In this document: piece by piece, positions 37,953 to 52,654 of the stretch
Numbering within the stretch: position 1 is the first letter of the stretch
How the letters are laid out: each line of letters begins with the position of its first letter
DNA from: Actinospineispora spinosispora DSM 44797
GTDB lineage: Bacteria > Actinomycetota > Actinomycetes > Mycobacteriales > Pseudonocardiaceae
Assembly (NCBI RefSeq): GCF_000429025.1
Contig: NZ_AUBB01000006.1
Coordinates: 620,001-684,000, forward strand
DNA: 64,000 nt
Direction: 5' to 3'
Notes under the pieces: model-generated
The model's input: only the letters and a program-made list of their open reading frames with translations
What the model was told of the DNA's origin: nothing
Databases searched by the model: none
Program-made: the position numbers and the translations under genes

Positions 37953-38810
37953 TCAGCCGGTGGGCACCAGTCCGGCCTCCGCCAGCATGAACCGGTGCAA
38001 CAGCCGCCGACGTTCGGCGAGGCTCCCCGGCCCGGTGCGCGGCACCGGCACCGCCTCCGACAGCGGCGCCCCCGCATGGAACGGACAGCCCAGCTCCGCG
38101 TCGGAGTTCTTGTCCGGCAGGAAGTACTGCCGCCATTCCCGGTTCGTCGGATCGCCGTAGTTGCCCAGCGCCGTGGACGGCGCGGTCCCGTCGAACGCCC
38201 GGAGACGCTTGCGGATGACCCGCCGTGCCGCCGCGCCGCGCGGTGACTCCGGTTCCAGCCCGTCGAACACCCAGCGGGGCTGGAAGGTGATCACGAATCC
38301 CGGCGAGTAGCGGCTGCGCCGCCTCGTGTGCGCGGGAGTGTTGCACACGACGAAGATCGACGTGCCGCCGTAGCTGAACTCCCACATCGGATGATCGGGG
38401 TCCTTCGGCACGTCGTCCGGCCAGTGCTCCGGGTCGTTCTCGTGCAGGTATTGCATGACCGACCAGAACTTGCCGTGGTACTCCTCGATCGTCCGGACCT
38501 TCGGTTGCGGCCGGAAGAACACGATCAGCGAGGTGTCCTTGGAGATCGTCTGGTAGGTGTCGAGGTAGTTCCCGATGATCGTGGTCAGCGACGACCACGT
38601 GTTCGTGTCATCCAGGTCGTCGACGAACCCGAACCGCAGTGTGCGTTTCTTCGCGCCGGCCACCGCGAACGTGCAGGGGAACGGTGAATCCGTCGACAGC
38701 AGCGAGTCGACCAGGTCGTCGAGACAGGCCGCGCCCCAGGGCGGCACGTCGCCGATCGTCCAGTCCTTGATCCGGGTGTCGTCTCCGACCGGGCAGCTTT
38801 CGGTAGTCAC
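37953..38810 (-). CDS. YqcI/YcgG protein, probable haem-dependent N-hydroxylase
   Basis: This 285-residue YqcI/YcgG-family protein has F-P-C-T-F-A near residue 43, then R-F-G-F-V-D-D, a central D-P-E-H-W-P-D-D-V-P-K-D-P-D-H-P segment and C-terminal G-C-P-F-H. Characterised relatives (DcsA, GntA, GrbE) are haem enzymes that hydroxylate guanidine or amine nitrogens of arginine-type substrates. It lies directly downstream of the SznF-like gene (23-bp gap), under one iron box. I infer N-hydroxylation of arginine or a similar amino acid as the first step towards an N-N ligand. GTG 38810 has TGGAG upstream. Confidence 0.78.
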   Translation of the reverse strand: MTTESCPVGDDTRIKDWTIGDVPPWGAACLDDLVDSLLSTDSPFPCTFAVAGAKKRTLRFGFVDDLDDTNTWSSLTTIIGNYLDTYQTISKDTSLIVFFRPQPKVRTIEEYHGKFWSVMQYLHENDPEHWPDDVPKDPDHPMWEFSYGGTSIFVVCNTPAHTRRRSRYSPGFVITFQPRWVFDGLEPESPRGAAARRVIRKRLRAFDGTAPSTALGNYGDPTNREWRQYFLPDKNSDAELGCPFHAGAPLSEAVPVPRTGPGSLAERRRLLHRFMLAEAGLVPTG

Positions 38811-38833
38811 TTCCACTCCAGGATTCGCCTCGG

Positions 38834-40210
38834 TCAGAACTGACGGAACATCTCGTCGGGAATGATCGGCTGGTGGTATGTGCACGAGCCGGACAGGACC
38901 GTCGAGCCGTGCAGCCGGGACGTCGGGATCAGCACCTTGTCGCCCTGGTTCAACTCGATCTTGTGGGTGACGTTGTTCCAGAAGTGCATCTGACCGACCT
39001 CGATCATGACCAGCCGGTGGTCGTCGTGCACGTGTGTCGTGGAGGTCTCCGCCGAGGTCTCGACGAACGTGTCCAGGTCGAACTCGATGTTCTCGTTCGT
39101 GAGGTGCTGGTCGATCTTCTCGGCCTTCTCCTTGTACTCCTCGATCCGGTCGGCCCAGTTGACCTGCGCGGCGAGGTCGGAGTGCCACAGGTCCCCGAGC
39201 CACGCCGCGTCCGCGAAACCGCGGTGCACGCCCGCGACGACCTCGTCACCGAAGGTCTCCACCAGCGGCGCGACGAGCGCGGTCAGGTACTCCTCGAGGC
39301 CCGCGCCGTCGAGCGTGGCCGGCCGGCTGAAGAAACCACCGGTCGAACCGAGGCCCTCGGCGAAGACCTGGGCGAACCGGGCCCGACTGACCTCCTCGTC
39401 GATCTTCTTGTGCAGCAGCGCGCCGAGGAACTCGTAGAGCTTCTCGTGGTTGCTCGCCGTGTAGTGCACGTAGTTGCCGCGGGCGAGCGAGGAGTTGAGG
39501 TACAGCTGCCAGTACGCGCCGATGGTCGGCTTCAGCTCGGCGTCGGCGAGCAGCGCGCGGTACTTCTCCGCGTCCGCGACCCAGGCGCCGTATTCCTGCA
39601 GGAGCAGCCCGCGCAGGCCGGGGTGCGCGACGTCGTACTCGCCGATCGCGTTGCGTGCGATCGCCGCGTTGGACGCGGGCAGGAACGCGGAGAGCTGCAG
39701 CAGCAGGAAGGTCGCCGACTCCCGGCGCCCCTTCGTGGCCAGCGCGGCGTCGAACGCCTCACCCGGCGCCGCGGCGCGCTGGTCGCGGTAGTCGTGCAGG
39801 TACCGGCTCAGACCCGCGAAGCTCGTGCTCGGCAGGGTCTCGCGCTCGCCCTCGAGGAAGGTGAACAGGTGCCGTTCCAGGATCGGCTTGGCCTGCGCAC
39901 CGAGCGTGCGGTTGCGGTCGGAGTAGAAGTCCCTGTGGTCCTGCGCGGCGGCCGCGTTCGCGGTCGGCGCCACGTACAGCAGGTCGGTGTCGTAGATGTT
40001 GCGCAGCATGCGGTTGCCGAGCAGACCGCTGAGCATCAGCACCCGCTCCACCGGCATCGGCTTGCTGTAGTCCAGCCATTCCAGGTCGTCCGGACGCACC
40101 GGGCGCCGGAACGGGTTCTCCTCGGTGGTCAGCTCCTCCCACTCGGCGGCCCTGAACGCCGGGTTCCTGGAGAACACCTTGACCAGGTCGTGAGAGTCCT
40201 CTGTTGTCAT
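38834..40210 (-). CDS. SznF/GrbD-like HDO-cupin protein
   Basis: This 458-residue protein has an N-terminal region, a haem-oxygenase-like (HDO) central domain (about 160-360) and a C-terminal cupin (about 385-455), the architecture of SznF. The cupin keeps H393-x-H395 and H434; the 39-residue spacing equals that between the second and third iron ligands of SznF. In the HDO domain E206-Y-G is present, but the expected His ten residues later is K216. The segment normally Y-F-x-x-H-x3-D-x2-H reads FFSRPATLDGAG, so most diiron ligands are missing. It likely performs only the cupin N-N-forming step, with N-hydroxylation by the neighbouring YqcI-type protein. An iron box lies 58 bp upstream. Confidence 0.78.
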   Translation of the reverse strand: MTTEDSHDLVKVFSRNPAFRAAEWEELTTEENPFRRPVRPDDLEWLDYSKPMPVERVLMLSGLLGNRMLRNIYDTDLLYVAPTANAAAAQDHRDFYSDRNRTLGAQAKPILERHLFTFLEGERETLPSTSFAGLSRYLHDYRDQRAAAPGEAFDAALATKGRRESATFLLLQLSAFLPASNAAIARNAIGEYDVAHPGLRGLLLQEYGAWVADAEKYRALLADAELKPTIGAYWQLYLNSSLARGNYVHYTASNHEKLYEFLGALLHKKIDEEVSRARFAQVFAEGLGSTGGFFSRPATLDGAGLEEYLTALVAPLVETFGDEVVAGVHRGFADAAWLGDLWHSDLAAQVNWADRIEEYKEKAEKIDQHLTNENIEFDLDTFVETSAETSTTHVHDDHRLVMIEVGQMHFWNNVTHKIELNQGDKVLIPTSRLHGSTVLSGSCTYHQPIIPDEMFRQF

Positions 40211-40298: not shown

Positions 40299-41096
40299 TC
40301 AACTACCTAGGAACTCTACGAGAAGCCGGTTGACCTCGCCCGGTCGCTCCAGGTAGCCGAAATGGCCGGTATCGGGAATCTCGCTATAGCGTGCTCCCGG
40401 CACTACGTCGGCCACCTCCCGGGACAGCGCACACGGGATCATCACGTCGTCCGCGAAGCCCACGACCAGCAAGGGAGCCCGGATGTCCCGGTACGCGTCG
40501 CGCCGGTCGCGCAGCTGGGTGGACACCGCGAGCTGGGCCCGTTCCCCCGCGGACATCGGGCCGGCGGAGAACTCCAGCACGTCCAGCCAGTCCCGCGCCG
40601 CCTTCTCGTCACGCAGCGTCGCCGGGGAGAGGTTCAGCACAGCGGTGACCGCCGAGTGGTAGGCCGGAGGCAATGTGACGCCCTGGTCGAACAGCGCCTG
40701 CTGGCCCGAGGTGAACATCGACTGCACCGGATCGAGACGCGCGTGCGCGGCCATCGCCACGACCTTGCCGACCAGCTCGGGCCTGGCGAGCGCCAGCTCC
40801 TGGACCACTCGGGCACCCAGCGACGTGCCGACGACGTGCGCGGGGCCGCCGCCGAGATGTTCGATCAGCGACGCGACGTCCCCGACCAGATCGTCGATGG
40901 TCAGGCCGGAGCCGGCAGGCGGCGATGCCCCGATGCCCCTGCTGTCGAAAGTCACCACCCTGAATCCGGCCGCGACCAGCGCGGGCACCTGGTGCAGCTT
41001 CCAGACGCGACCGGGGCTTCCGGTTCCCATCACCATGACGACGAGATCGCCGTCGCCCGCCACCTCGTAGCTCACCGGGAGTCCGTTTGAAAACAC
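40299..41096 (-). CDS. alpha/beta hydrolase of siderophore locus
   Basis: This 265-residue cytoplasmic alpha/beta hydrolase has the nucleophile S92 in VVGTSLGARV, an acidic residue in G-F-A-D-D (about 218) and the base histidine in DTGHFGY. Position between the iron-boxed hydroxylase pair and the siderophore transporter suggests siderophore release or hydrolysis, or an editing thioesterase. Substrate is unknown. It starts with GTG at 41096, back to back with the ABC operon. Confidence 0.78.
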   Translation of the reverse strand: MFSNGLPVSYEVAGDGDLVVMVMGTGSPGRVWKLHQVPALVAAGFRVVTFDSRGIGASPPAGSGLTIDDLVGDVASLIEHLGGGPAHVVGTSLGARVVQELALARPELVGKVVAMAAHARLDPVQSMFTSGQQALFDQGVTLPPAYHSAVTAVLNLSPATLRDEKAARDWLDVLEFSAGPMSAGERAQLAVSTQLRDRRDAYRDIRAPLLVVGFADDVMIPCALSREVADVVPGARYSEIPDTGHFGYLERPGEVNRLLVEFLGS

Positions 41097-41106
41097 AGCC
41101 TAACCT
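41097..41106. promoter_or_regulatory. partial iron box between hydrolase and ABC operon
   Basis: AGCCTAACCT (reverse complement AGGTTAGGCT) is a perfect match to ten core positions of the iron box but lacks the second flank. It lies in the 39-bp gap between the divergent starts. It may be a weak DtxR/IdeR half-site controlling both directions. Confidence 0.4.
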
Positions 41107-41135
41107 TGCCACGCTACCGATATGAGCGTGCTGAC

Positions 41136-42809
41136 GTGACCGAGCCGACCATCGGACGGTCCATACTCCGCGACTCGGTCGCCGCCGATCGCCGGGACCT
41201 CGCAGCGGCATCCGTGCTGCTCATGCTGCACCAGGCGGGCGAGGCACTCGTGCCGGTCCTCGTCGGTGTGGTGATCGACAAAGCGGTGCGTGGCGGCGCC
41301 GGAACGGCACTGCTGACCTGGCTCGCGGTCCTCGGGCTGGACTTCCTGATGCTGTCGGTGTGCTACCGGTTCGGTGCACGCCGGACCTGGTTGGCCGAGG
41401 CCCGCGCCGACCAGCGGCTGCGACTGCGGATCACCGGGCGCGTGCTCGATCCCCGGGGTGGCGCGGAGCTGGGGCACCTGCCGGGGGCGCTGGTCAACAT
41501 CGCGGTAGGGGACGCCAAGCGGGTGGCGAACCTGCACCTCGCACTGCCGTTCGGACTGGCCGCGCTGGCCGCACTCATCGTGGCCGGGATCGCATTGTTG
41601 CGGATCTCACTGCCGCTGGGTCTGCTCATCCTGCTCGGCACTCCCCCGCTGCTGTACCTGCTGCGGCTGCTCGGCAAGCCGTTGCAGCGGCGCAGCGGGC
41701 CGGAACAGGAACGCGCGGCGCAGGCGGCCGGCGTCGCGGCCGACCTGGTGAACGGCGTCCGTGTACTCAAGGGCATCGGCGCCGAAGCGGCGGCGGTCCA
41801 GCGCTACACCCTGACCAGCCAGGACGCGCTCACCGCGACACTGCGCGCCGGACGTGCCCAGGGTTGGTACCAGGGCGCGATGCTGGCCGCGAACGGTCTG
41901 TTCCTCGCGCTCATCGCGCTGGTCGGTGGCCGCCTCGCGGCGGAGGGTTCGATCAGTGTCGGTGAGCTGGTCTCGGCCGTCGGCCTGGCCCAGTTCCTGC
42001 TCGCCCCGATGAACATCTTCGGTCGCGTGGTCAGCTCGTTGGCACAGGCCAGGGCGTCCGCCGAGCGCATCGCCTCGGTACTCATCGCGCCGCACGCCGC
42101 CGACGGTGGCGCCGGCAGGCCGTCCGAACCGGTCTCCGGCGCGCTGCGCATCCGCGGCCTCGACGGGCTCGACCTCGATGTCCCGGCGGGCCAGCTGCTC
42201 GGCATCGTCAGCCCCGACCCGGCGGTGATCACCACCCTGTTGCGCTGCCTGAACCGGGAGTCCGACCTCGGGTCCGGCAGCATCGAGCTGGACGGCCGCG
42301 CGATCACCGAGCTGGACCCGGCCGCGCTGCGCGGCGCGATCCTCGTCGCGGCACACGATGCGGAGCTGTTCGCCGGCACGCTGTGGGAGAACGTCACGTC
42401 GGCGGCGCACGGCCGCGATCCGGGCGCCGCGATGGCCGCGGCGCAGGCCGACGAGGTCGCCGGCACGCTCGCCGACGGCGTCCACTCGCTGATCAGCGAA
42501 CAGGGCCGGTCGCTGTCCGGTGGCCAGCGTCAGCGGGTGGCGCTGGCCAGAGCCCTCGCGGTCGACGCGCCGGTACTGGTGCTGCACGACCCGACGACCG
42601 CGCTGGACACCGTCACCGAGGCGCGGATCGCGGGCGCGCTGCGCGAGGTGCGCGCCGGTCGCACCACGCTGGTGGCCACCACCAGCCCCGCGCTGCTCGC
42701 CGCGTGCGACCGGGTGGTCGCGCTGGACGGCGGCTCGGTCACCGCCGACGGCAGCCATGCCGAGCTGCTGAACAGCCATGACGACTACCGGACGTTGGTG
42801 CTGGCATGA
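41136..42809 (+). CDS. ABC exporter-fold subunit with degenerate Walker A
   Basis: This subunit of about 557 residues has an N-terminal six-span membrane domain (about 15-300) and a C-terminal ATPase domain. The signature motif is intact (LSGGQRQR, 460-467). The Walker A region reads GIVSPDPAVITT (356-367) with no G-K-S/T, and Walker B reads L-V-L-H-D-P with His and Asp in place of Asp-Glu. It therefore cannot bind ATP canonically on its own, and should pair with the next gene's product. Sequence context (salicylate siderophore) points to a YbtPQ/IrtAB-like importer. The TTG at 41106 is a possible but poor alternative start. Confidence 0.85.
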   Translation: MTEPTIGRSILRDSVAADRRDLAAASVLLMLHQAGEALVPVLVGVVIDKAVRGGAGTALLTWLAVLGLDFLMLSVCYRFGARRTWLAEARADQRLRLRITGRVLDPRGGAELGHLPGALVNIAVGDAKRVANLHLALPFGLAALAALIVAGIALLRISLPLGLLILLGTPPLLYLLRLLGKPLQRRSGPEQERAAQAAGVAADLVNGVRVLKGIGAEAAAVQRYTLTSQDALTATLRAGRAQGWYQGAMLAANGLFLALIALVGGRLAAEGSISVGELVSAVGLAQFLLAPMNIFGRVVSSLAQARASAERIASVLIAPHAADGGAGRPSEPVSGALRIRGLDGLDLDVPAGQLLGIVSPDPAVITTLLRCLNRESDLGSGSIELDGRAITELDPAALRGAILVAAHDAELFAGTLWENVTSAAHGRDPGAAMAAAQADEVAGTLADGVHSLISEQGRSLSGGQRQRVALARALAVDAPVLVLHDPTTALDTVTEARIAGALREVRAGRTTLVATTSPALLAACDRVVALDGGSVTADGSHAELLNSHDDYRTLVLA

Positions 42810-44548
42810 GCGAACGACAACTGCTGCCGGTCGCCACCGCCGGGCGGGTCAGGGCCGAGCTGTCGGTGCTGCTGCGGCCTCGGCGGCTGTGGGGCTATTC
42901 GGCGCTCGTCGCGCTGGTGGGTGCGGCGGCGGTGAGCCTGCTGACCGCACCGCTGCTGGGGCGGATCGTGGATCTCGTCGCGCAACGTCAGCCGGCGTCC
43001 TCGGTGCACGGCCCGGTGCTGGCGCTGGCCGGGGTCGCGCTCGGCCAGGGACTGCTCACCGTGCTCGGCATCGCGCTGGTGAACCGGGTCGGCGAGGGCA
43101 TGCTCGCGTCGCTGCGGGAACGGTTCGTCGCGCAGGTCCTCGACCTGCCGCTGGAGCGGATCGAGCGCGCCGGCTCGGGCGACCTCACGTCCCGGGTCAG
43201 CGCGGACGTCGCGGTGGTCAGCGAGGCGGTCCGCCAGGCGGTTCCGCAGTTCGCCCGCTCCGGCCTGCTGATCGCGCTCACCCTGGTCGGGCTGGCCGCG
43301 TTGGACTGGCGGTTCATGCTGGCCGGGCTGGTCGCCGTTCCGGTGCAGGTGCTGACCGCGCGCTGGTACCTGCGTCGTTCGGCGCCGATGTACCGGGCGC
43401 AGCGAGAGGCGGCCGGCGCGCAGCAGCAACAGCTGCTCGACACCGTGGGCGGAGCGGCCACGGTCCGTGCGTTCCGGCTCGGCGAGGAACACACCGCGCT
43501 GGTCGCGCACCGTTCCGAAGCGGTCGTCGAGACGGCCGTGCGGGTCATCCGCACCCAGACCAGCTTCTTCGGCAGGCTCAACCTCGCCGAGTTCGTCGGC
43601 ACCGCCTCGGTACTGGTCGTCGGCTTCTTCCTGGTCCGGTCCGGTACCGCGACGGTCGGTGCGGCGAGTGCCGCCGCGTTGTACTTCATCAACCTGTTCG
43701 GCCCGGTCAACCAGGCGCTGTTCTCGCTGGACACGGTGCAGTCCTCCGGTGCCGCGCTCGCTCGCCTCGTCGGGGTGCTGGACACCGCGCCCCGGACCGA
43801 GTCACTCGGCGGCGCGCAGCCGGTCGACGGCTCGGTGAAGCTCAGCGAGGTGAGCCACGCCTACCTGGACGGCCCCGAGGTGCTGCACGACATCGATCTG
43901 GACGTGACGTCCGGCAACCGCATCGCGCTGGTGGGTGCCACCGGCGCCGGGAAGAGCACGCTGGCCAAGCTGGTGTCCGGCATTCATCAGCCGAGCAGCG
44001 GCACGGTCCAGATCGGCGGGGTCGAGCCGGTCTCGGCCGACGCGCGTCGCGGGGTCGCGCTGGTCACCCAGGAGGTTCATGTGTTCGCCGGCAGACTCGC
44101 CGACGACCTGCGCCTGGCCCGCCCCGGTGCGACCGACGACGAGCTGCTCGCCGCGCTGCGCACGGTCGGGGCCGCCGACTGGGCGCTGGCGCTGCCCGAC
44201 GGACTGGACACGATCGTCGGCTCCGGAGGTCACAGCCTGACCGTCGTGCAGTCCCAGCAGCTGGCGCTGGCCAGACTGGTACTGGCGGACCCGCCGGTGG
44301 CGGTGCTGGACGAGGCCACGGCGGAGGCGGGGAGCGCGGGCGCGAAGGTGCTCGACGGTGCCGCGCTCAACGCGCTGGAGGGGCGCACCGGTCTGATGGT
44401 GGCGCATCGGCTCACCCAGGCGGCCACGGCGGACCAGGTGGTGGTGATGGACGGTGGCCGCATCGTCGAGCAGGGCACCCACGACGAGCTCCTTGCCGAG
44501 GGCGGCCGCTACGCCGGCTTGTGGGCCGCATGGCAGCACAGCCGATGA
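42806..44548 (+). CDS. ABC exporter-fold subunit with degenerate signature
   Basis: This 580-residue partner has a six-span membrane domain and an ATPase domain with a perfect Walker A (GATGAGKST, 377-385) and Walker B (V-A-V-L-D-E). Its signature motif is S-L-T-V-V-Q-S-Q-Q instead of L-S-G-G-Q. It complements the upstream subunit: the only complete ATP site would use this Walker A/B and the partner's LSGGQ. The start overlaps the upstream stop by 4 bp. Expected to be a heterodimeric transporter for the iron-loaded salicylate siderophore, or its exporter. Confidence 0.87.
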   Translation: MSERQLLPVATAGRVRAELSVLLRPRRLWGYSALVALVGAAAVSLLTAPLLGRIVDLVAQRQPASSVHGPVLALAGVALGQGLLTVLGIALVNRVGEGMLASLRERFVAQVLDLPLERIERAGSGDLTSRVSADVAVVSEAVRQAVPQFARSGLLIALTLVGLAALDWRFMLAGLVAVPVQVLTARWYLRRSAPMYRAQREAAGAQQQQLLDTVGGAATVRAFRLGEEHTALVAHRSEAVVETAVRVIRTQTSFFGRLNLAEFVGTASVLVVGFFLVRSGTATVGAASAAALYFINLFGPVNQALFSLDTVQSSGAALARLVGVLDTAPRTESLGGAQPVDGSVKLSEVSHAYLDGPEVLHDIDLDVTSGNRIALVGATGAGKSTLAKLVSGIHQPSSGTVQIGGVEPVSADARRGVALVTQEVHVFAGRLADDLRLARPGATDDELLAALRTVGAADWALALPDGLDTIVGSGGHSLTVVQSQQLALARLVLADPPVAVLDEATAEAGSAGAKVLDGAALNALEGRTGLMVAHRLTQAATADQVVVMDGGRIVEQGTHDELLAEGGRYAGLWAAWQHSR

Positions 44549-45492
44549 GCGGCCTGAGCCGACGCGGCTTCCTCGGTCTCGGCGGCCTGGGCCTGCTGGT
44601 GGCGGGGTGTGGCAGCACCGTCGCCGAGCAGCGCCCGGGCAGGACCGTCACGGACAAGTTCGGCCAGGTCACGATCCCCACCGAGCCGAGGACCATCGCG
44701 TCGGTCGGCCGGACCGACCACGACGCACTACTCGCCCTGGGCATCGTGCCCACGTCGGTCTACCAGTTCGTACCGACCATGCGCCGGGGTGTCGGGGTGT
44801 GGGCGGAGCCGAAGCTCGGCGCCGTGAACCCCGCTCTGGTGACCGCGCCGCTGAGCTTCGAGAAGATCGCCGCGCTGCGCCCCGACCTGATCCTCGACGT
44901 CCAGTCGAGCGGCGACCCGACCGAATACCGCACGCTCAGCGCGATAGCCCCCACGATCGGCCTCCCACCGAACACCGCGCCGAACACGGTCTCCTGGCAG
45001 GACTCGACCCGCCTCATCTCGACGGCGGTGGGCCGGGCCGCTGACGGCGACAAGCTGGTCACCGATACCGAGCAGCTGCTGGAGCGCACGAAGTCCGCGA
45101 ACCCGTCGCTGCACGGCAGAACCATCTCGATCCTGCTGTGCGGCGCGGGCGAAATCGACGCCTATACGACCCGGGACGTCCGAACCCAGCTGGCCGTCGC
45201 GCTCGGCATGGTGCCGTCGCCGTTCGTCCTGCGCCTCGACCAGTCCCGCTACTACGCGGCGCTGTCGGCGGAGCTGGTCAACGACTCCACCGCGGACGTA
45301 ATATTGGTGCTCACCCGCACGGGTCTGTCCGAGGCCGAGACCCTGAACCAGTACCCGATGCTCGCCTCCCCCGCGCTGCGCGACAGGGTCGTGGTGGTGG
45401 AGGACTTCAACGTCTCACTCGCGCTCGCGTGCGCCTCGGTGTTGAGCATCCCGTACGCGATCGCCGGTCTGGTGCCGCTGTTGATCCGCTGA
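44545..45492 (+). CDS. Tat-exported siderophore-binding lipoprotein
   Basis: This 315-residue FepB/FecB-type binding protein has a twin-arginine signal S-R-R-G-F-L and a lipobox L-V-A-G-C in its first 25 residues. The periplasmic-binding domain follows, with the typical T-I-A-S-V-G-R-T-D-H-D-A-L-L-A-L-G-I-V-P opening. It should capture the ferric siderophore outside the membrane. Its ATG overlaps the permease stop (ATGA). A binding protein in one operon with an exporter-fold ABC pair is unusual, because such proteins normally serve FepDG-type permeases. Confidence 0.85.
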   Translation: MSGLSRRGFLGLGGLGLLVAGCGSTVAEQRPGRTVTDKFGQVTIPTEPRTIASVGRTDHDALLALGIVPTSVYQFVPTMRRGVGVWAEPKLGAVNPALVTAPLSFEKIAALRPDLILDVQSSGDPTEYRTLSAIAPTIGLPPNTAPNTVSWQDSTRLISTAVGRAADGDKLVTDTEQLLERTKSANPSLHGRTISILLCGAGEIDAYTTRDVRTQLAVALGMVPSPFVLRLDQSRYYAALSAELVNDSTADVILVLTRTGLSEAETLNQYPMLASPALRDRVVVVEDFNVSLALACASVLSIPYAIAGLVPLLIR

Positions 45493-45517: not shown

Positions 45518-47041
45518 TCAGAAGGGCGGCAGGTCATCACCTGGTGTGGAGGGTGGTGGGGTGATGATCGGGTCGCCTCGGGTGTGGTGGGTCTGGCCGA
45601 ATGGGCTGGTCCAGCGGAACTGGCCTGGTGTGGGTTGTTGGAGTCGCCATCGGCCCCGGGTTTTGAGGTCGTGGTCGTGGGCGCAGAGTTGGCCGCCGTT
45701 GGTGTCGGTGGTGGGGCCGCCGTGGTGGAAGTCGATGGTGTGGTCGAACTGCGATTCCTGTGCTGGGCGTCGGCAGCCCGGGCCGAGGCAGTAGCGGTCG
45801 CGGATCTGGCTGTAGAGCCGGAGTGCGGCGGTGGGGAAACGACGCCCCGGCCGAGAGTTGATCATGGTCCGGGCCTGTGGCCAGGCGGCGCACTGGTTTG
45901 CAATGTCGGTAAGCACCCGTTCCCAGCCTGGTGGCGGGTTCTGCATCAGTTGGGCGAGCAGTGAGGCGGTCAGCTGCAGCTCGACCGCGCCACCGGCACG
46001 CTCGCGGGTGGCGTGGGTCGGGCGGGAGCGCAGCACACCGGGAACCAGGAGGTAGCCGTGCTCGTCGCAGACGGCGAACGTCCAGGGCCCGCCTCGTTGC
46101 TGCAGGACGGTGCGGCGGGTGTTGGCGGCGAGGATGGGTCCCCAGCCGGGTAGTTCGCCGGGGCGTTCGCTGAGGTCGAGCAGGGTGGCGAGTTCCGCGC
46201 GGATTTCGACGCCTTGGGGCTTGCCCGCTGGTGCATGGCCCAGGAAGAAGGCGACGATCCCGGCGCGATCTAGACCGTGCAGGGTGCCATCCAGCAGCCC
46301 GCAGAACACATCCGCGCGAATCTGATCCACCCGCGCCGGACACCCAGCCCTCTTGATCGCCCCGGCCAGAGCATTGACCCGAGTACACGCGGCGGCCATG
46401 TCCTCCGGCGCGATACCCGAGGCGGAGAGAGTCGCGGTGCCGTCCTCATTCAAATACCCGACCACGGTCCGGCGCTCGAACGCCTTCTCATACAAGTCCT
46501 GGGCACGCTCGGGGTCGGAGCCGATGACCAACTTGCGCAGATACGCGGCCAGCTTCCCGGTCGTCCACGGCGGGGTCTTGGGCAGCACCGCCTGACAGAT
46601 TTCGACGCGCTGGGCCTCGGGGAGGTCGGCAAGGTAGGTGGCGAAGATGCGGGCTTTGGGCAGGTCGATCCACCCCGAATCGAGGGCGTCGAACACCAGC
46701 GGTAGGCGGGACAGCAGTAGCCAGGAGAAATCCAGCTCCGCATCCGACTTACGCCGAGTCCACGACAACGCCACCCGCAACTCATCAGCCACATACCGAC
46801 CAGGCTCAGCCACCAACGCGACCTCACAAGGATCAGCTTCAGGATCACGCCCACCCAACGCCGCGATATCCGCCGCCAACTGGGCAGCCACATGCGCCTG
46901 CAACCGATACCGGGCCTTCAACACCTCGACCAGGTCACCGTTCGACACCGAGGACCGATCAATCCCAGCCAGGGCAGCGGCGAGTTCCGGGCCTGGCGCC
47001 ATCGACGCCAACCCCTCCGGAACCACACCCGCCGCTGCCAT
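45518..47041 (-). CDS. 13E12-type DUF222 HNH endonuclease-like protein
   Basis: This protein of about 507 residues has an N-terminal DUF222 (13E12 repeat) region and a C-terminal HNH domain: R-D-R-Y-C-x-x-P-G-C, then F-D-H-T-I-D-F-H-H-G-G-P-T-x-x-x-N-G-G-Q-L-C-A-H-D-H. These genes are multicopy and mobile-looking in actinobacteria; the activity is rarely shown. It interrupts the siderophore locus. Its codons use far more T and TTG-type third positions than its neighbours. ATG 47041 is chosen; GTG 47050 and TTG 47071 are alternatives. Confidence 0.85.
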   Translation of the reverse strand: MAAAGVVPEGLASMAPGPELAAALAGIDRSSVSNGDLVEVLKARYRLQAHVAAQLAADIAALGGRDPEADPCEVALVAEPGRYVADELRVALSWTRRKSDAELDFSWLLLSRLPLVFDALDSGWIDLPKARIFATYLADLPEAQRVEICQAVLPKTPPWTTGKLAAYLRKLVIGSDPERAQDLYEKAFERRTVVGYLNEDGTATLSASGIAPEDMAAACTRVNALAGAIKRAGCPARVDQIRADVFCGLLDGTLHGLDRAGIVAFFLGHAPAGKPQGVEIRAELATLLDLSERPGELPGWGPILAANTRRTVLQQRGGPWTFAVCDEHGYLLVPGVLRSRPTHATRERAGGAVELQLTASLLAQLMQNPPPGWERVLTDIANQCAAWPQARTMINSRPGRRFPTAALRLYSQIRDRYCLGPGCRRPAQESQFDHTIDFHHGGPTTDTNGGQLCAHDHDLKTRGRWRLQQPTPGQFRWTSPFGQTHHTRGDPIITPPPSTPGDDLPPF

Positions 47042-47167
47042 ATCAAGCACGCTACGGGCGACCCCCGACAAAAACCGCCCGCGCAGACTAGGCCAAAAGG
47101 GTGATATATCCAGGCCAGACAGCTAAAGCCGCGCAACCGCCTACGGCGTGCACGCACACCACCCCCA

Positions 47168-47357: not shown

Positions 47358-48974
47358 CTATAAAGACCCAGCCAACTGCCGCTTATCGATCTTCCCCACG
47401 GCAGTCAAAGGCAGAGACTCCCGAACCACCAACCGATCAGGATTGAAGAACCGAGCCAACCCCCGCCCCGCGAGCCACGCCCGAATCTCCCGAAGCTTGG
47501 GAGCCCGAGCAGCCTCGGGCGACAGCGTCACCACGGCACACACCAACTCCCCGACCGCCTCGTCAGGCACCCCGAACACGGCGACCTGAGCAAGGGAGGG
47601 ATGCTCCAGCAGATGCTCCTCGAGCGTCGCGGCCGAGACGTTCTCCCCGCCCCGGTTGATCACGTCCTTGACCCGCCCGGTCACCACCAGGTGCCCGGAC
47701 GGCAGCTGACGCACCAGGTCACCCGAGCAGTAGAAGCCGTCAGCGGTGAAGGCGTGCGCGTTGTACGACGACGCCCGGTAGTAGCCGCGCAACGTGTACG
47801 GCCCACGAGTCCACAGTTCACCCGAGGAACCCGGCTCGACCGGCGAACCGGACCGGTCGACGACGAGCACCTCGTCGTCGGGACACAACGGGCGCCCCTG
47901 GGTCGACTCGATCAGCTCGGACGAGTCGTCCAGGCGCGTGTAGTTGAGCAGCCCCTCGGCCATGCCGAAGACCTGCTGCACGCCACACCCCAGCGCCGGC
48001 GTGATGCGACGGGCGAGCGCAGCGTCCAGTTTCGCGCCGCCGACCTGCAGCAGCCGGAGGCTCGAGCGGTCGTGGGTGTCCCATTCGGCCACCTCGACCC
48101 ACATCCTGGCCATCGGCGGTACCAGCGCGGTGACCGTGACACGCTCCCGTTCGACCAGTGCGAAACCCACGTCGGGGCTGGGTGCCGGCGCCAGTACGAC
48201 CCGGGCGCCCACCCCGAACGCGCCGAGCATGCCGGGGCAGGCGAGCGGGAAGTTGTGCGCGATCGGCAGGCACGCCAGGTACACGTCCCGCGCCGTCAGC
48301 CCACAGATCTCGGCGCTGGCCCGCGCGTTGTAGGCATAGTCGCGGTGCGTACGCGGGATCAGCTTCGGCTTGCCGGTGGTGCCGCCGGAGATCAGTAGCA
48401 CCGCCACCTCGGCCGGGTCCGACTCCGGTAGCGGCTCAGGCGTACCGGACGGCAGGTCGTCGAGGCCGACGAACGGACCGGGGTCACCGGAGGCCACGAT
48501 CACGTGCCGCAGCGACGGAGCGCCCTCGGCGATGCCGGTGGCCAGCTCGCGGTAGTCGAAACCGTCGTGGCGCTCCGGGATGACGTAGCCGACCGCGTCG
48601 GCGAGCCCGACGAAGTGCTCGATCTCGACGTGCCGGTGCGCGGGCAGCGCCAGTACCGGCACCGCCCCGCAGCGCATCAGCGCGAAGAACACCACGACGA
48701 ACTCGACCGTGTTCGGCAGGTGCACGACCACCCGGTCAGCCGGTGCGATCCCGAGTGCCCGCAATCCCCTGGCCACCCGGTCGACCCGCTGGTCCAGCTC
48801 CGCGTAGCTCAGCCGGGGGCCGTCCGGCCTGCCGTCGACCACCGCGATCTCGGAGCCGGAGCGCGCCGCCCAGTCATGGAGCAGCCCGTCCAGGGTCTCG
48901 TCCCGCCAGTAGCCCGCCTCCCGGTACTTCCGCACCAGGTCGTCGGGCCACGGGTTCGTTCCGTCCAGCTTCAT
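47358..48974 (-). CDS. salicyl-AMP ligase (aryl acid activating)
   Basis: This 538-residue stand-alone adenylation enzyme is of the EntE/YbtE/MbtA type, with P-loop L-L-I-S-G-G-T-T-G-K-P-K, G-M-A-E-G-L-L-N-Y and C-terminal G-R-V-K-D-V-I-N-R-G-G-E-N-V, and the catalytic lysine in V-G-K-I-D-K. With salicylate synthase two genes upstream it should load salicylate onto the aryl carrier domain of the NRPS. Its ATG overlaps the NRPS stop. The last 80 or so codons have relaxed, T-rich third positions and the final sense codon is TTA, unlike the rest of the gene. Confidence 0.88.
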   Translation of the reverse strand: MKLDGTNPWPDDLVRKYREAGYWRDETLDGLLHDWAARSGSEIAVVDGRPDGPRLSYAELDQRVDRVARGLRALGIAPADRVVVHLPNTVEFVVVFFALMRCGAVPVLALPAHRHVEIEHFVGLADAVGYVIPERHDGFDYRELATGIAEGAPSLRHVIVASGDPGPFVGLDDLPSGTPEPLPESDPAEVAVLLISGGTTGKPKLIPRTHRDYAYNARASAEICGLTARDVYLACLPIAHNFPLACPGMLGAFGVGARVVLAPAPSPDVGFALVERERVTVTALVPPMARMWVEVAEWDTHDRSSLRLLQVGGAKLDAALARRITPALGCGVQQVFGMAEGLLNYTRLDDSSELIESTQGRPLCPDDEVLVVDRSGSPVEPGSSGELWTRGPYTLRGYYRASSYNAHAFTADGFYCSGDLVRQLPSGHLVVTGRVKDVINRGGENVSAATLEEHLLEHPSLAQVAVFGVPDEAVGELVCAVVTLSPEAARAPKLREIRAWLAGRGLARFFNPDRLVVRESLPLTAVGKIDKRQLAGSL

Positions 48975-51046
48975 CCGGTCAACCGTGCTTCCAGCGCGCA
49001 GGCCACCTCGTCGTCGCTCATCGTGGCGATCGCGGCGAACATCGCGGCCGCCTCGTCGAGCCGTCCCGGCAACGGTTCGGCCGCGCGCAGCCGGGCGGCC
49101 AACGCGTCGATCGTGGGCGCCGCGAACAGCATCCGCACCGTGGCGACCTGGGTCGCCAGCACCTCGCGCAGCCCCCTGACCAGGACGGTGGCACTCAGCG
49201 AGTCACCACCGGCGGCGAAGAAGTCGTCGGTGACCCCGGGCAGCTCGGTCTCCGGCAGACCCAACGACTCGGTCCACAGCAGCGCGATCGCATGTTCCAG
49301 GTCGTCCCTCGGAGCGACCTGTTCGGCGGGAACCGGTTCGGCCCGGGGACGCGGCGCCCGGCGCGGCGGGAGCAGAGCCGGATCGGACAGGTCACGCAGC
49401 GGTGTCACCCAGGCCTGCTGCTCCACCGCGAGCCTGCGCAGCAGCGCCACGAATGCCTGGAACATGGCGGGCACGACGCCGTCGGAGAACTCGCGCACGC
49501 GGACGTCCCAGTTCACCAGCAGACCGCCGGACACCTCGGTGACCTGCGCGTCGAGCAGCACCTGCGGACCCTGCGAAATGATCCACACCGCGTCGCCGAA
49601 CGCGGCGGCCACCTCGGCGGAGAACAGCTCCCCCAGGTTGAGCGCGCTGGTGAACACCACCGGGGCGAGCACCTGCTCGCCGTCGCGTCTGCTCAGCTCA
49701 CGCAGCACCTCGACACCGCAATGATCGGCGTTCGCGGCATCGGTGTGCAGCTGCGCCTGGATCTCGCGCACCCGGTCGGCGAACGTCCGTGGCTCGGTCA
49801 GGTCGACGGCGAGCAGTACCGAGCTGGTGAAGTCCCCGACCAGCAGGTCCACGTCTGGATGGACCTGCTCGCGGTCGAACATCGGCACGTTGAGCAGGAA
49901 CTTCGACTCGCTGCTCCACGCACCGAGCACCTCCGCGAACGCCGTGGCGATCGCCGCGGCCAGCGTGACGCCGTGCCGGCGGGCCGCGCCGGCCAGCGCC
50001 TCACGCTCCTCCGGACCCAGCAGCACGTACTCACGGGTGACCTCCGGCCGACCGGCCACCGGGTGGTCCGGCGCCATCGGCAGCTCGGGTGCACCGGGGA
50101 GCGAAGCCAGCCGCGACTGCCAGTAGCCGGTGGCACGCTGGACGTCCTCGCGGTGCTCGGCCGCCACCGCGTCCAGGTAGTCGCGGTAGCCGCTGCGGAT
50201 CGGCGGTAACTCGCCGTCCGGTGCCAGATAGAGCGTCGCCAGGTCGGCGAGCAGGACCCGGTAGCTGACCGCGTCGGCCGCGACCATGTCGACGTCCAGG
50301 TGGAACCTGGTGCGGCCGCCGGGCAGCAGGGTCAGCGCGGTGCTCAGCACCTCGCCCGCCTCGATGTCCAGCAGCTGGTGGGAGTACTCGTCGCGAACCT
50401 CGGCGAGCACCCGGTCGACCTCGGTCGGCAGGCTGTCCCGCAGGTCACGCACCGTCAGGCCGCGCCAGCCGCTGTCCCCGGTGATCGTCTGACGACCGGT
50501 GTCGGTGATCCGCACCCGCAGCATCTCGTGCCGCTCCACCAGCCGGTCCAACGCCGCCGCGAGCCGTCCCGGGTCGACGTCGCTGCCGTCGAACTCGCTG
50601 TACAGGTGGGCCGCGACACCGCCGAGACGCTGGTCGTCGCCGCGACCGATCCAGTAGGCGTGCTGCAGCGGCGCGAGGTCGAACTCCTCGCTGTCGCTCT
50701 CGACGCCGCCCACGACCTCACCGAACCCGGCGGGGACGGCGTGCTCGCCGACCGCCCTGGCCTGGCTGCGTGCTCTCGACTCGGCGGCCGCCCGGCGCGC
50801 CGCGATCAGCTGGGTCCAGTCCGCGACCGTCGGCCGCTCGGCCAGCTCGGCGAAGTCGACCTCGACCCCGGCGCGACGCCACCTGGCGACCAGCTGCATC
50901 AGGCTGATCGAGTCCAGCCCGAGCTCGAACAGGTTCTCGCTGGCCTCGACGACGGAGGGAGCCTCTTCCACCAGGTCGGCCAGCGTCGCCGTCACATCTC
51001 GTACGTCCCCGGGCAGTCCACTGACCGGTACCTTCGAGGCCGTCAC
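48971..51046 (-). CDS. NRPS ArCP-Cy-PCP without adenylation domain
   Basis: This 691-residue protein has an N-terminal aryl carrier domain (phosphopantetheine S46 in GLDSISLMQL). A heterocyclisation domain follows (about 100-540): L-A-P-L-Q-H-A-Y-W-I-G-R at its start and the D-x4-D-x2-S active motif in VDMVAADAVS. A C-terminal carrier domain ends it, with S in GGDSLSATV. There is no A and no TE domain. It should couple salicylate to a Cys, Ser or Thr on the second carrier and cyclise it to a thiazoline or oxazoline. The amino acid must be loaded in trans. GTG overlaps the synthase stop (GTGA). Confidence 0.85.
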   Translation of the reverse strand: MTASKVPVSGLPGDVRDVTATLADLVEEAPSVVEASENLFELGLDSISLMQLVARWRRAGVEVDFAELAERPTVADWTQLIAARRAAAESRARSQARAVGEHAVPAGFGEVVGGVESDSEEFDLAPLQHAYWIGRGDDQRLGGVAAHLYSEFDGSDVDPGRLAAALDRLVERHEMLRVRITDTGRQTITGDSGWRGLTVRDLRDSLPTEVDRVLAEVRDEYSHQLLDIEAGEVLSTALTLLPGGRTRFHLDVDMVAADAVSYRVLLADLATLYLAPDGELPPIRSGYRDYLDAVAAEHREDVQRATGYWQSRLASLPGAPELPMAPDHPVAGRPEVTREYVLLGPEEREALAGAARRHGVTLAAAIATAFAEVLGAWSSESKFLLNVPMFDREQVHPDVDLLVGDFTSSVLLAVDLTEPRTFADRVREIQAQLHTDAANADHCGVEVLRELSRRDGEQVLAPVVFTSALNLGELFSAEVAAAFGDAVWIISQGPQVLLDAQVTEVSGGLLVNWDVRVREFSDGVVPAMFQAFVALLRRLAVEQQAWVTPLRDLSDPALLPPRRAPRPRAEPVPAEQVAPRDDLEHAIALLWTESLGLPETELPGVTDDFFAAGGDSLSATVLVRGLREVLATQVATVRMLFAAPTIDALAARLRAAEPLPGRLDEAAAMFAAIATMSDDEVACALEARLTG

Positions 51047-52425
51047 GGTACGACCACCCTCCGATCGTCGGCCACGTGCTCGGTCGCCGGCACCAGGAAG
51101 CGGCTGATGCTGCGCAGCTTCTCCCTGGTCTCCTCGAACTCCCGCTCCGGGTTGGACTGGCCGACGACACCCGCGCCGGCGCGCAACCAGGTACGGCCGG
51201 CGCGCTGGAAGACGGTCCGCAGCACCAGCGCGGCGTCCAGCGACCCGTCGGCGTCCGCGACGACGACCGCGCCGCTGTACAGGTGGCGCGGTTCGCTCTC
51301 GTACCGGTGGATCGCCTGGCAGGCCTCGAGCTTCGGCACCCCGGACGCGGTCACCGCCGGGAACAGGCAGGCCAGCGCGTGCCAGGCGGTGCGGTCCTCG
51401 GCGAGCCTGCCGGTCACCCGGGAGGCGAGGTGCTGCACGCTGCCTCGGCGACTCACCGACATGAAGTCCTCGACCAGCACCGAGCCGTCGGTGCACACCG
51501 CGCGCAGCTCCTCCTGCGCGCCCAGCACCGACACGGCGTGCTCGTAGATCTCCTTCGGGTCGGCGAGCAGCTCCTCGCGCAGCGCGGTGTCGGTGTCGGT
51601 GTCCCCGGACAGCGCCCGGGTGCCGGCGAGCGGCTGCGTCGACACGGTGCCGTCACCCCGTACCTCGACGACGGTCTCCGGGCTGAAGCCCGCCGCGCCC
51701 AGGTCACCCAGGTTCAGCAGGAACGACCGCGCGGGCGTGTTGCCCCGGCGTCCCGCCTGGTAGGTGCCGGCGAGGTCGGCGCCACCGGGCACCGGAACGA
51801 CACGGGACAGGATGACCTTGCGCAGCAGCTGCGCGTGGATGTCGTCGACCGCGGCGGACACGGTGTTCCGGTAGGCGTCATAGCCGACCATCTCGTCGGC
51901 GAGCAGCTCGCTCACCGGCGTGGCCGGCACCTCGCGCAGCCCCTCGATCTCGATGCACAGCGCGGCGAGGTCATCGGTGTGCAGTGCGCGCAGCTCGGCA
52001 CTGTCACCATTCAGCCGCACCTCACGGGCGGGCACGATCAGGTGCGCCAGCGTTGCGTCGCCGACCGCGTCCGGCATGCCGTGCAGCAGGTAGCTCAGCT
52101 CGAACGCGAAGTAGCCGTAGGCGCGCCAGCCTGCGATGCCGCACTCGGCGAGCAGGTCACCGATTTGCCGTAGCGGCTCAGAGCCGACCGGCACCCGGCG
52201 CTCGCCGTCCTGAGTGGTGAGTCGGATCTCGCGGCCGGTCATGATCAGCTCGGCGGCGGCGCCGATGCCGATCGACACCTCGCCGTGGCGCTCGTAGAGC
52301 ACGAACGGCCCTTCCGCGCCCCTGGCCAGCCCGACACCGGCCGCGACCGGGTCGACGCCGAGGTTGACGGTGGTTCCCGCGTAGTGCGGTTCGGTGCGGG
52401 TCGTTCCGGACATCAGCTCAGACAT
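51043..52425 (-). CDS. salicylate synthase (MbtI/YbtS-like)
   Basis: This 460-residue chorismate-utilising enzyme has the salicylate-synthase C-terminal signatures K-E-I-Y-E-H-A-V, V-E-D-F-M-S-V-S-R-R-G-S-V-Q-H-L and F-P-A-V-T-A-S-G-V-P-K. It converts chorismate via isochorismate to salicylate and pyruvate, giving the starter of the siderophore. The match to MbtI-type motifs favours salicylate over dihydroxybenzoate, and no EntA/EntB genes are present. ATG 52425 overlaps the MbtH gene by 8 bp; ATG 52413 is an alternative. Confidence 0.88.
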   Translation of the reverse strand: MSELMSGTTRTEPHYAGTTVNLGVDPVAAGVGLARGAEGPFVLYERHGEVSIGIGAAAELIMTGREIRLTTQDGERRVPVGSEPLRQIGDLLAECGIAGWRAYGYFAFELSYLLHGMPDAVGDATLAHLIVPAREVRLNGDSAELRALHTDDLAALCIEIEGLREVPATPVSELLADEMVGYDAYRNTVSAAVDDIHAQLLRKVILSRVVPVPGGADLAGTYQAGRRGNTPARSFLLNLGDLGAAGFSPETVVEVRGDGTVSTQPLAGTRALSGDTDTDTALREELLADPKEIYEHAVSVLGAQEELRAVCTDGSVLVEDFMSVSRRGSVQHLASRVTGRLAEDRTAWHALACLFPAVTASGVPKLEACQAIHRYESEPRHLYSGAVVVADADGSLDAALVLRTVFQRAGRTWLRAGAGVVGQSNPEREFEETREKLRSISRFLVPATEHVADDRRVVVP

Positions 52426-52654
52426 TCGACCGCTCCGCCTGGTCGCGCTCCATCCGGGCGCGCAGGCTGGCCGGCCGCATGTCGGTCCACGCCGCCTCGA
52501 TGTGATCGAGGCACGGTTGTCGGCCGTCCGGCCCGTGAGTGATCGTCCAACCTTGTGGCACCGGTGAGAACGTCGGCCACAATGAGTACTGGCCCTCACC
52601 GTTCACGAGTGCGTAGAACGTGCCTGCCTCGTCTGCGAACGGATTTTCGGACAT
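52418..52654 (-). CDS. mbtH: MbtH-like NRPS helper
   Basis: This 78-residue MbtH protein has N-G-E-G-Q-Y-S-L-W-P, P-Q-G-W and the terminal I-E-A-A-W-T-D-M-R-P-x-S-L family motif. MbtH proteins bind and activate NRPS adenylation domains. No NRPS adenylation domain is encoded in the window, so it must help one encoded elsewhere. It is the first gene of the four-gene operon and follows an iron box by 113 bp. Confidence 0.93.
   Translation of the reverse strand: MSENPFADEAGTFYALVNGEGQYSLWPTFSPVPQGWTITHGPDGRQPCLDHIEAAWTDMRPASLRARMERDQAERSNV

Follow-up and report, generated by a model that had tools for sequence, protein, structure and literature searches.

The protein encoded at 38834-40210 of the window (the whole stretch of DNA that was analysed, 64,000 nucleotides) most likely works together with a heme enzyme to turn arginine into graminine, a metal-binding amino acid. 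As a whole, the locus was best explained as the graminine-making pair of a metallophore pathway, composed of a heme protein of the YqcI/YcgG type and an SznF-like protein that would work with its cupin only, and this explanation is considered very probable.

The gene pair and the predicted structure

The pair and the two domains discussed below were located as follows.

37953..38816 (-): YqcI/YcgG heme protein, putative arginine guanidino N-oxygenase (PF08892, 1.8e-73; presumed GTG start)
38834..40210 (-): SznF/GrbD/ChmM-like protein of 458 aa with N-terminal region, HDO core and C-terminal cupin (SznF E=8e-57; AlphaFold fold)
38837..39088 (-): cupin region, residues 375-458, with H393, H395 and H434 intact and with R399, E404 and H446 of the graminine group
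39176..39850 (-): degenerate HDO core, residues 121-345, with S180, E206, K216/D213, K269, P297, D301 and G304 at the seven ligand positions

The SznF-like open reading frame was on the minus strand, from ATG at 40210 to TGA at 38836-38834, and encoded 458 aa. The frame as listed begins at GTG 40252, and the ATG at 40210 is the start that was taken both by the first-pass annotation and here. That annotation had placed an SznF-like enzyme at these positions, and the frame proved to be a real gene for a full-length SznF homologue. Only SznF was matched among PDB sequences by phmmer (three distinct sequences at E<=0.001), the best match being 6m9r (E=8e-57, query residues 8-447 on SznF 19-461); no Pfam-A model was found for the protein at the threshold used. 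A chance alignment was ruled out by this E-value and by a residue pattern which recurred in 24/24 close relatives. One copy of the SznF-like gene and one of the PF08892 gene were found in the genome.

The full-length SznF-like fold with C-terminal cupin was also present in the predicted structure. An AlphaFold2 model was built from 25 family sequences (mean pLDDT 83.9, pTM 0.88), and the 12 best PDB chains in Foldseek were all SznF, with TM (by query) of 0.85-0.88. In VIA-align 2 the model was superposed on SznF with Z 42.0 and rmsd 2.4 A over 440 residues, and the next protein after SznF was HrmI, an HDO N-oxygenase, with Z 23.9.

Loss of the diiron site

The SznF ligands, which we take to be numbered E189, E215, H225, E281, H311, D315 and H318 in the diiron (HDO) domain and H407, H409 and H448 in the cupin, fitted the letters of the SznF sequence at all ten positions. 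A ligand count of 7+3 for SznF is given in PMC10849742, and PMC10849742 and PMC13108848 together give 7+3 ligands and a 3H/4C set. In a MAFFT alignment of the window protein with SznF and 28 relatives, the seven HDO positions read S180, E206, D213, K269, P297, D301 and G304 in the window protein. Five of the seven ligands were lost, and only E206 (for E215) and D301 (for D315) were kept.

The first-pass annotation had read E206-Y-G...K216 and FFSRPATLDGAG (P297, D301, G304) in this domain and had concluded that three histidine ligands were lost. Both stretches were present as read, and the three losses were confirmed (H225 to K216 in phmmer or to D213 in MAFFT, H311 to P297, H318 to G304), while two further losses had been missed, namely the carboxylates E189 (S180) and E281 (K269). 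The complete seven-ligand HDO diiron site that marks an SznF-type N-nitrosourea synthase was not found in the window protein.

It had also been considered that other residues might form a complete diiron site, which found no support in conservation. His, Cys or an acid was found in at least 22 of the 25 members only at E191 and D345 within residues 121-345, too few positions for a diiron site as judged from conservation, and the 25 members shared no alternative metal-ligand set in this core. A full SznF-type nitrosourea synthase, catalyzing both steps by itself at a site rebuilt from other residues, would agree with a fold so close to SznF (Z 42) and with the retention of E206 and D301, but was made very improbable by the five lost ligands, by the lack of conserved positions beyond E191 and D345, by the coil modelled at residues 288-301 (which hold P297 and D301, aligned with SznF H311 and D315; a helix begins at 302) and by the YqcI protein encoded next door, and an intact or rebuilt site was rejected.

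Relatives of the window protein

Relatives were collected by scanning genome contigs with the window protein, a type of search that finds close relatives only. Twenty-four close-relative loci were obtained, all from Actinomycetota and 46-71% identical, with the H/H/H cupin triad in 24/24 and at most two of the seven HDO ligands in 24/24. Of the 397 genomes searched within the order to which the window's genome belongs, 6 had a match, including the window's own and a short partial match (L016, 81 residues matched) that was excluded from the ligand table and from all counts. The SznF-like gene of L025 was frameshifted in its assembly, and its residues before query position 51 were omitted from alignment A1.

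A YqcI homologue with the PC-x-F motif was nearby in 22 of the 24 close relatives, a more distant one (36-37%) in the case of L020 and L027, and none was found in L023 and L026, which lie on short contigs of 6.5 and 11 kb. Near the HDO-intact homologues (L012-L015 and L053-L056) YqcI was found in 0/8, in flanks of only ~1.5 kb for four of them and 3-4 kb for the other four. In addition, a homologue was present in Tistrella mobilis KA081020-065, a known maker of C-diazeniumdiolate siderophores (PMC10391617). It had lost five of the seven HDO ligands and kept the cupin triad, with YqcI directly downstream, and was taken to be MobE from the strain, the homology and this downstream gene. In a tree of 35 rows the 26 HDO-lost and the 9 HDO-intact proteins were split by one branch with support 100/100; the tree was rooted at its midpoint, and the Tistrella row was very long and its placement unsure.

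Two other kinds of homologue were observed. The proteins of L013, L014 and L015, from the same order, were a mirror image, with seven HDO ligands kept and the triad changed to R/A/F or R/A/Y, and to judge from these residues they might catalyze N-hydroxylation but not the N-N step. Genes of the SznF type with a full set of ten ligands were found on plasmids of Azospirillum, Pantoea, Gloeothece and Methylobacterium (L053-L056), where each was adjoined by a Rieske-domain gene and an ATP-grasp gene was near in three of the four.

The cupin domain

The claim that the SznF cupin ligand set is preserved was correct. H393, H395 and H434 aligned with SznF H407, H409 and H448, and the spacing of 39 between 395 and 434 equals that between 409 and 448 in SznF. 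The H/H/H triad was kept in 25/25 members of alignment A1, and the cupin was the best conserved part of the protein, with a mean pairwise identity of 0.79 for residues 375-458 versus 0.41 for residues 121-345.

Beside the triad, a Glu occupied the position of SznF E413 in all six SznF-type proteins with full triad, whereas Arg (R399) was found there in the graminine group (25/25, and the Tistrella homologue). H446 was present in all 26 graminine-group proteins and in 0/6 of the SznF-type full-triad proteins. E404 and D378 were also present in all 26, E404 being shared by the Gloeothece protein and D378 by the Azospirillum protein; H398 and H409 were found in the 25 actinobacterial members and were absent from the Tistrella homologue. 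This Arg/Glu difference was not seen pointed out in the consulted passages of the cited papers. From the sequences, R399 and H446 could have a role in the choice between graminine and nitrosourea. One Arg in place of Glu together with one His is a simple difference between graminine-type and nitrosourea-type cupins, and it is open to mutagenesis.

The gene cluster and its apparent split

The genes next to the pair, with their likeness to the cluster of Pseudonocardia eucalypti, were as follows.

40299..41096 (-): alpha/beta hydrolase (homologue 75% identical in the P. eucalypti cluster)
41106..42809 (+): ABC transporter, membrane and ATPase domains (P. eucalypti cluster copy 73% identical)
42806..44548 (+): ABC transporter, membrane and ATPase domains (P. 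eucalypti cluster copy 72% identical)
44545..45492 (+): periplasmic binding protein (Peripla_BP_2)
47358..48974 (-): stand-alone adenylating enzyme (P. eucalypti copy 73% identical), taken as salicylate-AMP ligase from its neighbours
48971..51046 (-): NRPS, carrier-Cy-carrier without adenylation (A) domain (upstream limit approximate; Cy motif DxxxxDxxS by eye)
51043..52599 (-): chorismate-binding enzyme, salicylate synthase-like, start uncertain (PF00425, 7.7e-72; P. eucalypti homologue 61%)

An HNH/DUF222 ORF at 45518-47071 separated the gene of the binding protein from that of the adenylating enzyme and may have been inserted into the cluster.

Counterparts of the window cluster were found on contig C7 of P. 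eucalypti within ~33 kb, at one locus, with identities of 77% for YqcI and 71% for the SznF-like protein. The P. eucalypti NRPS is carrier-Cy-A-carrier, and was 65% and 61% identical to two parts of the window NRPS, whose residues 17-553 and 574-688 aligned with its residues 159-699 and 1202-1316. A stretch of ~500 residues with the A domain, which lies between Cy and the last carrier in P. eucalypti, was missing from the window NRPS. A six-frame search of the genome with a ChmO-like C-A-T protein, in which 150 of 160 candidates were scored, gave no amino-acid A domain in the window; its matches within the window were confined to the aryl ligase and the condensation region of the NRPS.

The P. 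eucalypti locus includes, in between these counterparts, a peptide NRPS with an FDISINE A domain, and FDIS(V/I)NE A domains, as in the ChmO-like protein of L025, were present in the flanks of 18/24 relatives. In the window's genome they were found on contig C2, at 540046, 545937 and 580133, and the C2 A domains most like the P. eucalypti FDISINE one had identities of 62%, 59% and 53%. In the metallophore-like cluster of the window no amino-acid A domain was found, and candidate graminine-type A domains were on C2. Contig C2 further had a carrier-Cy-A-carrier NRPS and a binding protein, 53-56% and 54% identical to their P. eucalypti equivalents. An ABC gene on C2 matched, with 75% identity along 279 residues, a gene that lies ~10 kb from YqcI at the limit of the stretch analysed in P. 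eucalypti, and an ornithine/lysine hydroxylase-family gene was present at C2:608278. The one-locus cluster of P. eucalypti therefore corresponds to two loci in the window's genome, and relative to it the cluster looks split. Tetranucleotide usage of the window and C2 correlated with r 0.997, compared with 0.991-0.992 for further contigs of this genome and 0.949-0.973 for stretches from other genera, and the assembly is listed with 7.41% contamination.

The A domains were compared by the letters of FDxSxNE within these loci, which are not a full ten-letter code. A domains of the FDIS(V/I)NE type might also activate other ornithine derivatives. The A domain of ChmO was predicted for hydroxyformylornithine, and the graminine code from gramibactin-type clusters is a different one, DVHRTGLVAK (PMC10391617), so the reading of FDIS(V/I)NE is uncertain.

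A stand-alone A domain on contig C44 (L041:8220-9869) was tried as the missing one; it has the FDFSVWE motif and lies beside its own carrier-Cy-carrier NRPS, and nothing ties it to the window cluster, although it may serve in trans. Meanwhile, a second metallophore-like NRPS-PKS locus without SznF or YqcI genes was observed at C2:570000-586000 (L062, L063), composed of a Cy-like protein, C-A-T-C-A-T (FDFSVWE and FDISVNE), a KS-AT-carrier PKS and a binding protein, and it resembles the chalkophomycin assembly line.

The locus might be a relic, in which the graminine genes are still open and the pathway is broken, with the A domain lost from the aryl NRPS and the peptide NRPS gone from the window. 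The missing stretch of ~500 residues, the aryl ligase as sole window match to the amino-acid A-domain query and the HNH/DUF222 ORF inside the cluster would all fit such decay. However, all the cluster genes listed have open frames, contig C2 offers graminine-type A domains together with a related carrier-Cy-A-carrier NRPS, and no second copy of the SznF-like gene or of the YqcI gene was found in the genome, which leaves a relic rather unlikely.

The graminine-making pair of a metallophore pathway was the preferred explanation. A more specific form of it is put forward tentatively and with some doubt, in which a pathway broken up between two distant loci would work in trans, the window giving graminine, salicylate activation and an NRPS from which the A domain was excised in frame and C2 giving adenylation and the graminine modules, and in which the graminine-type cupin would be chemically distinct from that of SznF, R399 in place of Glu and the extra invariant H446 steering the N-N rearrangement to loss of the guanidino carbon (graminine) versus its retention (nitrosourea). 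Among the papers listed from a mainly open-access literature, judged by title and the opening of the abstract, there was no salicylate-graminine product and no Pseudonocardia diazeniumdiolate siderophore.

Proposed division of labour between the two enzymes

The YqcI neighbour was homologous to AglA (9uba, E=9.5e-34), and AglA Cys44 aligned with the Cys of its FPCTFA motif. Cys44 is the axial heme ligand of AglA, whose native substrate is aminomethylphosphonate-linked arginine, hydroxylated at an internal nitrogen (PMC12866846). ChmN binds heme and generates dihydroxyarginine, and its heme features are lost when Cys47 is changed to Ala; SznF homologues such as ChmM lack the HDO ligands, and the heme enzyme ChmN hydroxylates arginine instead (PMC10849742). 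For gramibactin and graminine both grbD and grbE are required, and both mutants are rescued by synthetic graminine (PMC6771848). Natural graminine has arginine as its precursor (PMC9679993).

The first-pass annotation had suggested that the YqcI protein took over N-hydroxylation and that only N-N bond formation was left to the SznF-like protein. This agrees with the published ChmN/ChmM model, fits GrbE/GrbD, and is supported by YqcI being nearby in 22/24 close relatives versus 0/8 HDO-intact homologues (flanks of ~1.5-4 kb) and by the lack of an alternative HDO ligand set. For C-diazeniumdiolate N-N bond formation, the heme step was shown in vitro for ChmN and the cupin step was not for ChmM; purified ChmM showed no activity on arginine derivatives and its N-N bond formation was unreconstituted (PMC10849742), so the N-N step still has to be inferred. 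The division of labour itself is already in print (PMC10849742, PMC6771848, PMC9679993).

By analogy with these published relatives, which also suggest the substrate, the order of reactions and the product, the YqcI/YcgG heme protein would hydroxylate the guanidino nitrogens of L-arginine, then the mononuclear cupin iron held by three His would rearrange dihydroxyarginine into the N-N bonded diazeniumdiolate L-graminine, and the dead diiron domain of the SznF-like protein may serve only as scaffold or docking surface. NRPS modules would load graminine into a metallophore which may be salicylate-capped and would contain oxazoline or thiazoline, and which the adjacent ABC and binding proteins could move. 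Since the putative graminine-loading modules lie on another contig, such a pathway would depend on cooperation in trans.

The N-N bond might instead be made on the assembly line, after dihydroxyarginine had been loaded by an NRPS, as was suggested for chalkophomycin, and both the inactivity of ChmM on free arginine derivatives and a ChmO A-domain code different from those of gramibactin-type pathways agree with this (PMC10849742). However, synthetic L-graminine restores gramibactin in the grbD and grbE mutants (PMC6771848), so gramibactin assembly can at least make use of free graminine, and in the window's genome the genes of the two enzymes lie on one contig and the candidate modules on another. 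A carrier-bound substrate was considered unlikely, and formation of free graminine by the enzyme pair was kept as the preferred route.

Comparison with known systems

Among the closest known systems was the ChmM/ChmN pair of chalkophomycin (PMC10849742), which like the window has an SznF homologue without HDO ligands, three cupin His and a YqcI/YcgG heme N-oxygenase, encoded in a metallophore cluster with NRPS genes. In S. violaceusniger, a chm-like cluster (L025, assigned by gene order) encodes a ChmM-like protein that was 58% identical to the window protein. Unlike the chalkophomycin cluster, the window has a salicylate synthase-like gene and an NRPS without A domain, no graminine-loading NRPS was found in it, and neither polyketide synthase nor acyl-CoA dehydrogenase was seen among the 31 of its 61 ORFs that were scanned with Pfam.

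The same enzyme pair is known from gramibactin biosynthesis, as GrbD/GrbE, and from Tistrella, with the homologue taken to be MobE (PMC6771848, PMC9679993, PMC10391617). The Tistrella homologue shares with the window protein the lost HDO ligands, the kept triad, R399, E404 and H446. It differs in having only 34% identity, a proteobacterial host and other NRPS partners. SznF of streptozotocin biosynthesis (PDB 6m9r, 6m9s, 6vzy) resembles the window protein in domain layout, fold (TM 0.85-0.88) and the three-His cupin triad, whereas it has all seven HDO ligands, produces N-nitrosourea from methylarginine, and carries E413 where the window protein has Arg. AglA (PDB 9uba) resembles the YqcI neighbour as a homologue with conserved heme Cys.

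The window pair is a further example of the published ChmM-type arrangement, and the central claim is already published. The present analysis confirms it independently and contributes two more lost ligands, an Arg/Glu signature in the cupin, an NRPS that lacks its A domain and a cluster that looks split. In addition, an intact one-locus cluster with a close relative of the window member is present in P. eucalypti, a named strain whose genome is sequenced. A genome-mining rule asks for GrbD, GrbE and complete NRPS modules in one region (PMC12971057), and with a split such as the apparent one seen here, one-region rules could misjudge such genomes.
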